Shown here: in pieces, positions 517-55,775 of the stretch
Layout: each line of letters opens with the position of its first letter
Numbering within the stretch: the stretch's first letter is position 1
From: Lachnospiraceae bacterium JLR.KK002
GTDB lineage: Bacteria > Bacillota > Clostridia > Lachnospirales > Lachnospiraceae
Length of the DNA: 64,000 nucleotides
NCBI GenBank assembly: GCA_036941025.1
Contig: JAYMNP010000001.1
Location: forward strand, 3,184,501 to 3,248,500
Direction: 5' to 3'
Notes under the pieces: generated by a model
What the model saw: only the letters and a program-made list of their open reading frames with translations
What the model was told of the DNA's origin: nothing
Database searches by the model: none
Translations under genes and position numbers: made by a program

Positions 517-717
517 ATCTCTCCCCTCCAGTAACTTCTTTTCTCTTTTGTGAATTTTAAAAGGTGCAAAATCTCTGCTGCTATCTTATATATAAACTTT
601 ACACATTGTTTTGCCCCTTTTCAATCCCCACGCCGGAAAATTTGAAGAATTAATTCCTGTATTCCGAGAATTCCGGTATTTTTTATAAAAAACAGGGTGA
701 GCAGGCATAATTATTTT

Positions 718-807
718 GTCGCGCCGAGTGCGGATTTATCCTAAGTGGTACCAGGCTTGCCCGGGGGATACTTTCACGCTTTAGCGTGACAGGGTCTTTC
801 CTGTAAG
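718..807. repeat. nested-palindrome element, chimeric copy
   Basis: Intergenic element starting GTCGCGCCGAGTGCGGATTT. Its left half matches the first module of the copy at 55208 (CCTAAG.GGTACCAGGCTTGCC), and its right half matches the second module (CTTTCACGCTTTAGCGTGAC...GGTCTTTCCTGTAAGA) found at 7940 and 55321. The left arm of the second module and the right arm of the first are absent, so the copy looks like a fusion of the two. It directly abuts the terminator of the flagellar operon. Confidence 0.75.
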
Positions 808-863
808 AAAAAAAATCCACGGGAATCAGGAGCTTACTGTCCCTGATTCCCATGGACTTTTTC
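808..863 (-). terminator. intrinsic terminator of the flagellar operon
   Basis: Read on the minus strand, CCATGGGAATCAGG pairs with CCTGATTCCCGTGG across a short loop and is followed by a run of eight T. It lies 67 bases after csrA and ends the flgM-to-csrA transcript. The other strand also ends in a T-rich tract, so the hairpin may act in both directions. The region 517-929 holds only this, the repeat element and the sigma-fragment leader. Confidence 0.85.
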
Positions 864-7799: not shown

Positions 7800-7994
7800 T
7801 TCTCTGATACAGAACAAAGCGGACAGGTCCGCATCAGCTCCCTGAATCCCTCATTCATGAGGGACCTGGACGGTTTGCTGCGCCGAGTGCAGTCGCTTTA
7901 GCGACTAATACCTGTTGCACGAGTGCGCATATTACTTTTCTCTTATAGGAAGACACTTTCATGCTTTAGCGTGACAAGGTCTTTCCTATAAGAG
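7800..7994. repeat. compound palindrome cluster with nested-palindrome core
   Basis: A run of short hairpins: GCGGAC-GTCCGC near 7816, CCCTCA-TGAGGG near 7848, AGTCGC-GCGACT near 7890, then the core module at 7940-7994 (CTCTTATAGGAAGAC, inner TCATGCTTTAGCGTGA, GTCTTTCCTATAAGAG). The outer arms differ from the copy at 55321 by a matched C-to-T and G-to-A change, so pairing is kept. It shares the linkers CGCCGAGTGC and CACGAGTGCGCATATTA with the copy at 55208. It lies immediately after the terminator of the leucine-rich-repeat gene. Confidence 0.75.
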
Positions 7995-8000
7995 AACAAA

Positions 8001-8038
8001 GTGCTGCACATCTGCAATTAATCGCAGATGTGCAGCAC
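8001..8038 (-). terminator. terminator of the LRR surface-protein gene
   Basis: Perfect 15-bp stem GTGCTGCACATCTGC / GCAGATGTGCAGCAC with an 8-base loop, followed on the minus strand by a short T-rich stretch. It lies 17 bases after the stop of the gene at 8056. Confidence 0.8.
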
Positions 8039-8055
8039 CTATAAAATAAATATCC

Positions 8056-9612
8056 TTATTCCACATCAACTTTCTTTTTCTTCTTACTGATTACCAGATA
8101 TCCACCGGCAAAGAATACACCCAGGCAGAGCACATATCTTGCGTCAAAAGCAATTCCTGTCTTAGGAGTTCCGCTGCCCACCTGTGCAGTTCCCATATTT
8201 CTGGAAACAGAAGTTCTGGTTCCGGCATTTGTTCCGCCGCCGGTTCCTGTCTGCGTGGTTCCGCCGCTGTTTCCACCGGTATTATTGTTATTGTTATTAT
8301 TGTTATTGCTATCGTTGTTATCCGGTTTTGGTTCGGGTTCCGGTTCCGGCTCAGGATCCGGTTTTGGTTCAGGGTCCGGTTCCGGATCTTCCCCAAGATT
8401 TCCTATACTTTCAAAAATATATCCATTCTCATCTGCAAAACGCTCTGCCTGAGAACCTGTATATCCGCGGATTACATCCGGCGTCCAGGAGGACTGGGAA
8501 CCAATGGATGTAACACTGGGAGGAATAGTAACTGCTTTGATTCCGCTTCCGGTAAAAGCATCTACTTCAATGGTAGTTACGGAACTGGGAATCTCCAGGT
8601 TATATACATAAGGACAATTACTGAAAGCAGAAGATGCTATGGAAGTCATACTGTCCGGCAGTGTCAGCTGGGACTTGCCGATAGGGCAGAACAGAAGCTG
8701 TGTCATGCCTGCATCGTATACCGCACCGTCTGAGGAAGCATAGCTTCCGTTTCCGCCTTCTATATTTACCTCTGCCAGATTGCTACAGCCATCAAAGGCA
8801 CTGAAATCTATGGATGAAACAGAGGCAGGTATGCTGATACTTCCGATACCGCTGCAGTTTCCGAACGCCTGGGAGCCAATGCTTCCCACAGAGCCGGGAA
8901 TGGTAATACTGGAAAGGCTGCTGCAGCCATATAAAGTAAGTTCCGGAATTGAGGATATTCCCGCTGAAAGGCTGACCGACGACAATCCGCTGCAACCTGC
9001 CAGAACGCCGCTTCCCATGGAACTTACGGAAGAAGGAAATGTAATCTCAGAAAGACCCACACAGTTATTAAACGCACTGCTTCCAATCTCTGTTACGCTT
9101 CCCGGAATACTGATACTTCCGAGGCTTCCGCAACCGTTAAATGCCTGAGCTCCAATGGAGGTTACACCTTCCGGAATATTGACAACACCCAGACTTCCGC
9201 AGCCGTCAAAGGTTTCCGCTCCGATTGCAGAGAGACCTGCCGGAAGTTCCACATATCCCAGTGAAGAACAGCCGTAAAAGGCGCCTCCTCCCACACTTGC
9301 CGGGCCGCTGATTACTGCGCTGGTCAGTCCGGTGCATCCGGAAAAAGCATAACTTCCCACACTGGTTACATTAGACGGAATCGTAACACTTGAAATTGAC
9401 GCATTGCCTGCAAAGGCATAATCAGCAATTCCTGTCACAGAAGCCGGTATGGTAATATCGCCGCCCGGCCCGCTGTAACCGGTAATCACCGAGCCTTCCA
9501 TAATATATGCACTCAGGTCTTCCTGGGCCATGGCCGGTACCACCGGGCACAGCACCAGGGTTAAGGCCAGTATCAATATTCCATTGAAACATCTGCCAAG
9601 TAATTTTTTCAT
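8056..9612 (-). CDS. BspA-type leucine-rich-repeat surface protein with TPKTG sorting signal
   Basis: A secreted protein of 518 residues. Residues 1-29 are a signal peptide ending PAMA. Residues about 35-375 are repeats of the LRR_5/BspA type, recurrent units like YAFSGCTGL..V.IP.SVTSIG. A proline/acid-rich stalk (PEPDPEPKPDPEPE) and an Asn run follow near residues 395-440. The C-terminus is a cell-wall sorting signal: TPKTG at 482, a hydrophobic segment and a KKKKK tail. The motif TPKTG departs from LPXTG. A class B sortase is encoded 36 bases upstream in the same direction and is the obvious candidate to anchor it. BspA-like proteins often bind host matrix or other bacteria; the target here is unknown. 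Confidence 0.88.
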   Translation of the reverse strand: MKKLLGRCFNGILILALTLVLCPVVPAMAQEDLSAYIMEGSVITGYSGPGGDITIPASVTGIADYAFAGNASISSVTIPSNVTSVGSYAFSGCTGLTSAVISGPASVGGGAFYGCSSLGYVELPAGLSAIGAETFDGCGSLGVVNIPEGVTSIGAQAFNGCGSLGSISIPGSVTEIGSSAFNNCVGLSEITFPSSVSSMGSGVLAGCSGLSSVSLSAGISSIPELTLYGCSSLSSITIPGSVGSIGSQAFGNCSGIGSISIPASVSSIDFSAFDGCSNLAEVNIEGGNGSYASSDGAVYDAGMTQLLFCPIGKSQLTLPDSMTSIASSAFSNCPYVYNLEIPSSVTTIEVDAFTGSGIKAVTIPPSVTSIGSQSSWTPDVIRGYTGSQAERFADENGYIFESIGNLGEDPEPDPEPKPDPEPEPEPEPKPDNNDSNNNNNNNNNTGGNSGGTTQTGTGGGTNAGTRTSVSRNMGTAQVGSGTPKTGIAFDARYVLCLGVFFAGGYLVISKKKKKVDVE

Positions 9613-28073: not shown

Positions 28074-28162
28074 GGAGGAGTACCCAAGCGGCTGAAGGGT
28101 CTGGCTTCGAACACCAGCAGGTCGGTAGTCCCGGCGCGGGGGTTCAAATCCCCCCTCCTCCG
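28074..28162 (+). tRNA. tRNA-Ser (anticodon CGA)
   Basis: 89 bases with the acceptor stem GGAGGAG / CTCCTCC and a G discriminator as expected for serine. The T arm is GGGGG-TTCAAAT-CCCCC. A long variable arm of the class II type follows the anticodon stem. The anticodon stem is CTGGC/ACCAG with one C-A mismatch at its loop end, and the loop reads TTCGAAC, giving CGA. No CCA is encoded. Confidence 0.9.
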
Positions 28163-28237
28163 TTTCCGGCACTTTTTTGTTTTTATAACCAAATAGTCAG
28201 GGACAAAAGAAGAAAGTACAAAAGAAGAAAATACAAA

Positions 28238-28284
28238 AAACGAATCCTCAGACGGTACTGCCATACCGGTCCGGGGATTCGTTT
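28238..28284 (+). terminator. terminator downstream of tRNA-Ser
   Basis: AAACGAATCC pairs with GGATTCGTTT, enclosing an inner CGGTA/TACCG hairpin, followed by TTTCTTT. It lies 75 bases after the tRNA. From here to 28525 I see only the T-rich decay of this region and no gene. Confidence 0.7.
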
Positions 28285-28525
28285 CTTTCGCCCACATGGA
28301 CTTTTTATCTCTTTTTTTGCCTGTTGGCATTATAGCATATGCAAAATTTTTTCAATATGCCTGCCACAGGAAAAAAATCTCTGCACCTGTGGAAACCGCA
28401 CCCTGCAGGTACTTTTCCTAATCCAGTCACAAAGATTTCTTTCGGAGCTAAAATTGAATTGAGATCTTCTCCCCTTTTTATACCCCTGTAATAATTCTAC
28501 CGACATTTTATGTCAGCCGCCATAC

Positions 28526-28657
28526 ACTTTGAGGAAAATTTCCTGGTTTTTCAGATTTTTATATCCTGCTCCGGAACTTTACTTTCACGCGTCAGTGCGA
28601 CGCGGTATTTCCTGATAAGATAAAAATAGGAAATTTTTCCTGGTTTTTCCTCAAAGT
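28526..28657. repeat. 132-bp inverted-repeat-bounded element containing a palindrome core
   Basis: ACTTTGAGGAAAA at the left end is repeated exactly in inverted form at 28645-28657. Just inside each end the direct repeat TTTCCTGGTTTTT occurs. The middle (28573-28630) holds a diverged copy of the nested-palindrome core (CTTTCACGCGTCAGTGCGACGCGGTATTTCCTG quoted by position only). On the minus strand AGGAAA-TTTCCT followed by ATTTTT comes just before the core, a terminator-like order. Confidence 0.6.
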
Positions 28658-28760
28658 TCATGGCTGCCCGGCAAATATCATGCTATACTTCCATCAACAT
28701 ATCAGTGTTCCCATCATCAGCCGGACACATAACTGTCAATTTCACAGAGGAGGTATTTTT

Positions 28761-41362: not shown

Positions 41363-41526
41363 TCTCCCACTCCTTTGTCCTTTCTGTCCTGATTTGAATC
41401 AAATCGGACATTTCATCCTGTCTGTTTTTCAAAATTCATTTTTCTTTCTGTATTCTAACATAAATAACCCCGGCTTTCCATAAGGTTCCCGGAGTTTTTC
41501 TGCTCTTTTGCAATGTGAAAAAGAAT

Positions 41527-41605
41527 GTGCTGTGCGCATAACTATTTTGTCTTACAGGAAATACTTTCACGCATTAGCATGACACCCTAATCTTATAAGA
41601 CAAAA
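41527..41605. repeat. nested-palindrome element, diverged copy
   Basis: Begins with TGTGCGCATAACTATTTTG, matching the linker of the copies at 7918 and 55296. The core has TTTTGTCTTA / TAAGACAAAA as the outer stem and TCACGCATTAGCATGA as inner hairpin. It lies at the 3' side of the spoIIQ-like gene terminator, as other copies do at theirs. The intergenic region 41363-41664 otherwise holds only that terminator. Confidence 0.7.
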
Positions 41606-41650
41606 AACCACCGCACCACTGATTCTTTTATCACTGATACGGCAGTTCTT
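41606..41650 (-). terminator. terminator of the spoIID-spoIIQ-like operon
   Basis: On the minus strand CCGTATCAGTGAT pairs, with one mismatch and wobble pairs, with ATCAGTGGTGCGG and is followed by TGGTTTTTTG. It lies just after the spoIIQ-like gene. Confidence 0.65.
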
Positions 41651-55065: not shown

Positions 55066-55119
55066 ATGATCTGCCTCCTTAAATAATTGGAAGAACAAAA
55101 TGGGCAAGCCCACTTCAAC

Positions 55120-55375
55120 TCTCCTGCCCCTCAGTCTTGAGGGGCGCTGGACATCCTGCGGATGTCCGTTTAGCGCGGACCGAAGCGGAGCGTAGATTTG
55201 CACATTTTGTCGCGCCGAGTGCGGATTTGTCCTAAGGGGTACCAGGCTTGCCTGGGGGATACCTTAGGACGGTCACGTAGTGACATCTTCCATTCGCACG
55301 AGTGCGCATATTATTTTTTATCTTACAGGAAGACACTTTCACGCTTTAGCGTGACAAGGTCTTTCCTGTAAGATA
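55120..55375. repeat. compound nested-palindrome element, fullest copy
   Basis: Between the T-box terminator and metG. In order: CCCCTCA/TGAGGGG (55126), GCGCTGGACATCC-GGATGTCC...AGCGC (55145-55178), then from 55208 GTCGCGCCGAGTGCGGATTT, module A with TCCTAAGG/CCTTAGGA around CCAGGC-GCCTGG (55229-55269), GTCAC/GTGAC (55272), CGCAC/GTGCG (55295), and module B at 55321-55373 with TCTTACAGGAA / TTCCTGTAAGA around TCACGC-GCGTGA. Modules A and B have the same plan: outer stem around an inner hairpin. Confidence 0.8.
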
Positions 55376-55377
55376 AA

Positions 55378-55668
55378 AGAACCGCCTTCTGCATCAGTCA
55401 GAAGGCGGCTGTCCGCGGTACCACTTCTTTTCGCTCCTTTCTCACAAAAAGAGCCTTATCAAGTATTCCATACTTTTCGCTGTAACAGGCGAACCTGTCA
55501 TCGCTTATCGGTATTTTCTCCGTATCTTTCTGCCGCTCCGTTCTGCTGCGGGCCGGAGCATACCGTTCAGCAATGCCACTCCAAAGCCATCTTCTGCATA
55601 ACCTCCTGCGTCCCTTTTCACCAGCCGGAACTCTCTGTGTCATTCCGTTATGCATACTCTCTTTTTCG
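55378..55668 (-). promoter_or_regulatory. T-box riboswitch, methionine type, of metG
   Basis: The T-box sequence GTGGTACCGCGG lies at 55413-55424 on the minus strand, and the terminator GCCGCCTTCTG / CAGAAGGCGG with TTCTTTT follows at 55378-55409. The stem I region begins at about 55668 with GAAAAAGAGAG; the likely specifier ATG is at 55588-55590 in AGAAGATGGC. Uncharged tRNA-Met would stabilise the antiterminator and turn metG on. Confidence 0.88.
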
Positions 55669-55775
55669 CTGTGTTTGGTTTGTTTTTATTTTATCAAAGA
55701 CTACCACAGAACCGGCGGAAAGTCAAGATAAATGCCCATGACAAATCAGCGGAGTAATTCGTCATGGTATGAACT

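Follow-up and report, generated by a model that had tools for sequence, protein, structure and literature searches.

We describe a family of dispersed, modular and folded intergenic repeats in the genome of Lachnospiraceae bacterium JLR.KK002 and its relatives. Our reading is that they are short, non-autonomous and mobile, that they insert at intrinsic terminators and that their A-tract end anchors them there; we give this reading a probability of about 0.7. Mobility and terminator targeting are supported by five features: fixed polarity, conserved folding, orthologous terminators that are bare in some species and occupied in others, one-sided truncation and the order of copies in arrays.

The family was met in the window, a stretch of 64,000 nt (positions 3,184,501-3,248,500 of the main contig of the 4.28-Mb genome), which contains five members (table below). 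An earlier note on this DNA had proposed a common core at five intergenic sites. The core is present at all five, and at a level far above chance: a 20-nt core pattern with at most three mismatches had four matches in the window and none in 100 shuffled versions. Other parts of that description held for some of the sites. The outer stem around an inner hairpin, claimed for all five, exists at three (7879-8003, 41526-41610 and 55262-55383), but the copy at 716-811 has no left arm and the one at 28580-28626 is left-truncated. Likewise, the core stands beside a strong terminator at four of the five sites (dG from -20.1 to -31.6), while at 28573-28630 only a weak terminator-like hairpin (dG -3.1) is found. 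The copy at 41526-41610 abuts the terminator (dG -23.8) of an M23-peptidase gene (SpoIIQ-like, PF01551). The ORF at 930-1154 is presumably csrA, a name taken from the earlier note.

Copies of the element in the window and the terminators next to them (window coordinates)
Feature	Position	Strand	Remarks
Longest window copy	55093..55383	+	left-end hairpin modules, left domain with long insert, T-tract, core, A-tract
Core of the metG-leader copy	55312..55383	+	nested palindrome, T-tract on one side, A-tract on the other
Terminator hairpin of the metG T-box leader	55381..55409	-	dG -20.1; abutted by copy 55093..55383
Copy with complete left domain and core	7879..8003	+	R1 123.7 bits
Terminator of leucine-rich-repeat protein gene (8056-9612, PF13306)	8000..8039	-	dG -31.6; abuts copy 7879..8003
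Internally deleted copy	716..811	+	left-domain start fused to right half of core; left arm missing; R1 match 763-801
Terminator downstream of csrA-like ORF (930-1154)	815..857	-	dG -28.5; abuts copy 716..811
Core; left flank short, right arm degenerate	41526..41610	+	R1 46.8 bits
Left-truncated core	28580..28626	+	core HMM positions 21-66 of 67

The longest copy separates the terminator of the metG T-box from the metG start (T-box RF00230 at 55398-55678, 89.7 bits, below the gathering score of 93). Our covariance model, R1, matches it at 55262-55383 with 108.5 bits. Repeat coverage around its inner hairpin (at 55336) runs from -245 to +57, so that the core, which had been taken for the extent of the element, is a part of a larger unit of about 55093 to 55383. 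The core at 28580-28626 is missing from the same place in a related species (G024). At locus L310 of G024, compared with window positions 28080-28660, the terminator of a selenocysteine-like tRNA gene has a copy in inverted orientation against it; our genome has no copy there. The window also encodes the large signal recognition particle RNA (RF01854, 33140-33401).

In the orientation used here, a complete element consists of left-end hairpin modules (of several kinds), a left domain of ∼55 nt, CAT, a T-tract, the core and an A-tract, after which comes the terminator of a gene on the opposite strand. The left domain has an outer GCGC/GCGC stem, an internal loop (with GA on both sides in several versions), a variable stem and a short inner hairpin; it occurs in several sequence versions. 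The core has outer arms of the type TATCTTACAGGAA..TTCCTGTAAGATA that enclose an inner TCACGC-loop-GCGTGA hairpin; a second core type, with a different inner part, was found when the genome was searched by left domain. Element size is roughly 50-280 nt. Some copies have loops such as GCGAAGC, a type that is stable in DNA.

The folding of the element is conserved and is supported by covariation, most of the variable helices being kept through changes on both sides. RNAalifold, run on 52 copies from our genome, G024 and other genera, arrived at the same two domains unaided, with 18 of 27 pairs changed on both sides. With our own structure, 90% of the alignment cells were paired (79.8% in shuffles, 33-58% when the structure was slid along the alignment) and both-side changes were present in 26 of 44 pairs, against 17.8 in shuffles. 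Three left-stem pairs (7-48, 8-47 and 9-46) are mostly or partly unpaired in the commonest versions. In a model-fitted alignment of copies from other genera, at least two Watson-Crick types were seen in 26 of 43 pairs; this figure is restricted to 16 rows, whereas counts on the whole alignment (A2) are partly redundant, as it includes 11 opposite-strand matches of the same sites. On the plus strand G-U pairs outnumber A-C pairs 97 to 59 overall (left domain, 33 to 9; core, 64 to 50), an excess that weakly favours this strand as the folded one, be it RNA or single-stranded DNA.

The core does not have the plan of an intrinsic terminator, a GC-rich stem with a T-tract after it: T residues precede and A residues follow its stem on either strand. 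The left-domain stem with its T-tract, and the left-end hairpin, could terminate transcription. The second-layer transcript end that the earlier note had offered as an alternative is conceivable as a side effect, with the left-end hairpin and A-tract forming a terminator on the same strand, but it leaves the uneven copy numbers unexplained.

The junction with the terminator was characterized by a test that accepted any hairpin whose dG was -8 or lower and whose T-tract lay no more than 14 nt from the junction. A fixed artificial arm was used in place of the sequence of the element, which removes the effect of variation in the element's own T residues; the same arm was put on random positions. 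Among 86 distinct copies of our genome, found by the inner hairpin and taken from the fetched loci, 73 have a terminator flush with the right end of the core (61 at a cut-off of -12). Background values were 102 of 1500 for random and 131 of 1500 for random intergenic positions. Each of the 73 T-tracts found begins at a distance of 17-31 nt from the inner hairpin, in a scan that extended to 75 nt. A right-end terminator was also found in 38 of 46 copies of G024 (from 42 loci; this genome has 83 pattern hits) and in 17 of 20 pattern hits from six other genera. L287 and L288, which account for two of the three exceptions in this last group, are apparent chance matches. A further sample, the best model matches from 16 of the 136 family genomes with matches, had a right-end terminator in 16 of 16 copies, one per genome, at the same energy cut-off and with the A-tract of the element left in. 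As to the 13 own copies without a terminator by the energy test, the first copy of L067 precedes another element, the hairpin at L004 is seemingly below the cut-off and L097 is truly in reversed orientation, judging from its flanks; the others show nothing.

The polarity of the core is thus fixed: its A-tract end is flush with the T-tract of the terminator. The statement that the copies are always in the same orientation stands with respect to the terminator (in the window, that of a minus-strand gene), but genome-wide they are on both strands, with 48 forward and 39 reverse matches. A preference for one replication strand was considered and dropped: with replication arcs split at GC-skew changes, 67 of 83 main-contig core hits (counted by hand) are co-directional, compared with 58 of 82 predicted terminators (p 0.15) and 247 of 346 ORFs (p 0.10), and neither difference is significant. 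The background here came from 20 stretches chosen by hand, which have no core-pattern hit and thus do not sample the genome at random; even so, R1 finds a copy in one of them (L360).

The 87 genome matches that make up these strand counts were obtained with the 20-nt inner pattern at up to three mismatches; the backward control gave one. The left-domain pattern had 64 matches, again with one in the backward control, and the 23 copies read among them were mostly of the second core type. Since the palindromes can be matched on both strands, the number of R1 matches is not a copy number; 119 of 120 scored candidates in our genome match the model. Within the genus, 11 of 29 genomes have at least 100 R1 matches (G000, G439, G023, G014, G024, G003, G009, G021, G002, G012 and G016) and six have one to five (G011, G019, G018, G015, G020 and G008), some of the element-poor assemblies being incomplete (G008 74%, G019 82% and G020 83% complete). 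Carried from the genome to its relatives, as the earlier note had proposed, a covariance model matched 136 of 299 sampled genomes of the family (E 0.001). The number of candidates scored per genome was limited to 120 in the count for the genus and to 11 in that for the family. The family-wide copies that were read follow the same plan with other sequence, e.g. different arms closing the same T/A-tract stem. The 20-nt pattern is rare outside the genus: 47 of 397 genomes match, mostly once, at about the level of the backward control. The 86 copies above, being found by the inner hairpin, do not include copies with other cores. A scan of contigs with the exact pattern, which is too strict, returned one contig, and an equally strict scan of viral contigs returned none; plasmids and phages gave no match in blastn.

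The association with terminators persists across our genome, a second species and other genera, and a common core is shared by copies genome-wide; the opposite outcomes, named in advance as grounds for giving up the idea of insertion targeted to terminators, did not occur. Orthologous regions, compared as had also been proposed, point the same way, as the element is present in the metG and dapA leaders of some species, while other species have bare leaders. By eye, among 29 genomes, the metG leader is bare (terminator followed by ribosome-binding region) in G436, G003, G013 and G019, and has differing versions of the element after the terminator and before the start codon in G000, G439, G024, G009, G010, G438, G014, G004 and G007. 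The remaining species have unrelated, degenerate or remnant sequence, and in several no leader was recognized; the Rfam T-box was above the cut-off in two loci (L145 and L151). The dapA leader, whose lysine riboswitch was checked in G000 and G024, appears bare or nearly so by eye in G002, G005, G012, G017 and G015 and carries versions of the element in G000, G024, G439, G010, G016, G004, G019, G007 and G438; in G018, G008 and G023 it may, from the look of the letters, hold right-end remnants.

A second genome of the same species (G439) differs little from ours. For 59 of the 60 loci fetched from it, the matching locus of our genome already carries a copy; 51 align in one piece over 95% or more of their length, and identity is 99% or higher in 50 of the 51. 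No clean new insertion was present among the differences read in these 60 loci. The differences include a 142-bp tandem unit in G439 (L180), a left domain lost from our genome between TGCGCAT repeats (L182/L060) and a different version of the element between similar flanks at L205 and L209. At L205, compared with L067 of our genome, the flanks are near-identical and an entire tandem element is replaced by another version. L184 has no match among our loci; its orthologue in our genome is 91% identical in dapA, and this site is an older or recombined allele. The two dapA genes (L241 in our genome, L239 in G439) differ by 9% though the fetched loci are mostly >99% identical, which suggests recombination in one of the genomes. 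Alignment was only partial at L194, L218, L229 and L238; the right part of L194 is 100% identical to L009 of our genome, its first 551 bases are unmatched and the left flanks differ. No target-site duplication could be read, with A/T-tracts at the junction and empty sites available from other species only.

Truncation is mostly one-sided in our genome. Measured from the start of the inner hairpin, repeat coverage ends 42-70 nt to the right for 69 of the 86 copies; another 13 run into a neighbouring repeat and four end earlier. The left edge varies from 0 to -376. By eye, 10 copies have lost the left arm and kept the right (two of them counted after turning, the terminator being on the other side) and two show the reverse. 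HMM scoring gave left against right losses of six to two in our genome, two to zero in G024 and two to two in other genera. The right arm is present in 21 of the 23 copies found by left domain (from 20 stretches hand-picked among the 64 matches), and a left-domain start was recognized in 35 of the 86 copies found by inner hairpin, one of the 35 being spurious and some longer copies being missed by a 120-nt limit. A fixed right (3′) end and a variable left (5′) end are as in target-primed retroelements; the counts from other genera are even.

Copies also occur in tandem. Near 186.8-187.4 kb, four left-domain matches follow one another head to tail at a spacing of 195-196 bp; this locus (L397, G000:C1:186300-187800) consists of four near-identical units of ∼196 bp of the second core type, with a terminator at the end. 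Among 20 tandem pairs that could be oriented (the ambiguous L008, L014, L070 and L086 and opposite-strand readings set apart), the copy farther from the terminator has the lower HMM score in 16; the HMM was built on the first core type, and other core types also score low.

We propose that an enzyme would recognize the terminator hairpin with its T-tract, and that the A-tract end of the element would be joined or primed at this T-tract. Copying would proceed away from the terminator and often stop early, and a newcomer would enter between the terminator and the older copy. In long copies the left-end hairpin and A-tract may mimic the target, which would explain head-to-tail arrays. With an RNA template, the process would be target-primed reverse transcription, the 3′ T-tract end of the terminator annealing to the 3′ A-tract of the element; copying from the A-tract end would account for the fixed right and varied left ends and perhaps, by template switching, for mosaics. 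If the element is mobile, RNA is a possible template, single-stranded DNA a slightly less favoured one, and something other than these two is about as probable as RNA, each with less than even odds; an enzyme that acts on single-stranded DNA and needs a hairpin with a T-tract fits the same facts of polarity and truncation. The fullest version, in which the element is the bacterial counterpart of a SINE, we regard as speculative: its folded non-coding RNA, ending 3′ in an A-tract, would be reverse-transcribed by self-priming from the terminator T-tract with the enzyme in trans, and would leave 5′-truncated copies at gene ends across the family. Against mobility, deletion between short repeats, of which there is one example (L182/L060), may also produce left truncation, and internal deletion may produce the core (L006 and L007).

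A more specific form of the DNA route is single-strand transposition of the IS200/IS605 or REP/RAYT kind, carried out by a Y1 (HUH) enzyme, where a terminator hairpin and T-tract exposed on one strand would be the target and the left-end hairpin and A-tract would regenerate it. Hairpins at both ends, the target mimic at the left end, loops of the GCGAAGC type in some copies and seven Y1 (Y1_Tnp) matches of equal score in our genome agree with this route, yet we judge it rather unlikely, as Y1 matches do not track abundance. In a survey of 16 genomes of the genus (G016-G024 lay outside it), Y1 matches numbered seven and five in the element-rich G000 and G014 and one and five in the element-poor G011 and G015; the element-rich G002, G009 and G012 (drafts, 92, 92 and 95% complete) had none. 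The core was absent from all 30 fetched Y1 loci. The ends of the IS200-like element of our genome (seven Y1 matches) look unlike those of our element; the agreement of its four aligned copies (L099, L112, L120 and L126) starts inside the gene and reaches the right end, over at least 532 bp, and the four have a common left end next to TTTAT. Arm-like 18-nt matches (at most three mismatches) were seen in four of the 30 Y1 loci (L100, L115, L116 and L125, all from other genomes). A RAYT or IS200 enzyme as the sole mobilizer was rejected, given that Y1 presence does not follow the element and that no core was found at the 30 loci.

Reverse transcriptases gave a similar picture. RVT_1 matched in four of five genomes searched, ours included, and had no match in the element-rich G024 (at least 100 R1 matches); none of the 19 reverse transcriptase loci fetched had a core or an arm-like match alongside, and ORF layouts of five loci with at least two copies showed nothing recurrent by eye. 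With RVT_1 missing from G024 and Y1_Tnp from G002, G009 and G012, the enzyme may be of another kind, or may have been lost after the expansion.

Insertion anywhere, with survival only behind terminators where harm is least, would need no targeting. Insertions are tolerated in intergenic 3′ regions, and the enrichment of pneumococcal repeats there is partly explained in this way in the portion of PMC3049150 available to us; however, the flush junction, the single polarity and the two sites in 5′ leaders (from the T-box or lysine-riboswitch terminator to the start codon), which are not obviously safe places, make this improbable. We think it just as improbable that the element is a host-functional part of terminator regions (a bidirectional terminator, an insulator or a 3′-end protector) kept by selection. 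Conserved folding, matches in 136 of 299 family genomes and the terminating potential of the left-domain stem with T-tract and of the left-end hairpin are what such a part would show, but within a single genus the number of matches in a genome ranges from one to at least 100, the element is present at some orthologous terminators and missing from others, and the left domain or one of the arms is absent in many copies.

Group II introns have a 5′ end of the GTGYG type. Descent from group IIC introns is very improbable: the target class is the same (PMC4424553, in the part available) and reverse transcriptase matches exist in our genome, but the Rfam scans of the window and six element loci found no group II match, G024 has no RVT_1 match with at least 100 R1 matches, and the terminator meets the A-tract end of the folded strand and not a GTGYG-type 5′ end.

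Should terminator-targeted mobility be true, small elements of a common class would land at intrinsic terminators in a large bacterial family, and riboswitch and T-box attenuators would be among these sites. So sharp a site preference would provide a handle on the enzyme and predict where new copies appear, and the element would illustrate how folded modules build up in 5′ leaders and behind genes. No Rfam family reached its gathering score for the element in the window and six element loci, so the covariance model can serve for annotation. The earlier note knew no named element with such a plan; this holds for the Rfam scans and for the literature searched, in whose accessible portions we found no description of the element. 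One source, as far as its excerpt goes, gives 250 candidate palindromic RNAs from human microbiomes and predicts that 230 form terminators (PMC8040213); the element could be among those 250.

Known systems share some of these properties. REPs flank RAYT genes and REP heads carry GTAG or GTGG (PMC2817692), and BIMEs can act as terminators or attenuators (PMC2965389), according to the excerpts available. Our element resembles both in being dispersed, palindromic, intergenic, mosaic and present in about a hundred or more copies. It differs from REP/RAYT systems, so far as that excerpt describes them, as no GTAG/GTGG head is conserved beside the palindrome (aligned copies, by eye) and Y1 genes do not track it. 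No terminal inverted repeats of MITE type join its ends: left ends differ among copies and from the core, which is palindromic alone. In the pneumococcus, a Gram-positive, BOX, RUP and SPRITE are likewise folded intergenic repeats, compared here by their partial descriptions. BOX is modular. SPRITE, on the description in the part of PMC3049150 at hand, is enriched close to 3′ ends and is itself terminator-like, whereas our element abuts a separate terminator that belongs to a gene. Uptake signal sequences of Neisseria and Pasteurellaceae are terminator-tied repeats too, but, in the accessible text of PMC1852404, they form the terminator hairpin and have about 9-11 nt, while the element has ∼50-280 nt and lies beside the hairpin. 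Group IIC introns, which insert at the DNA motif of intrinsic terminators without an endonuclease (PMC4424553, in its available part), have the same target and, on this account, the same position directly at terminators; the element described here is far shorter, has no internal reverse transcriptase and no Rfam group II match, and meets the terminator with its A-tract end.
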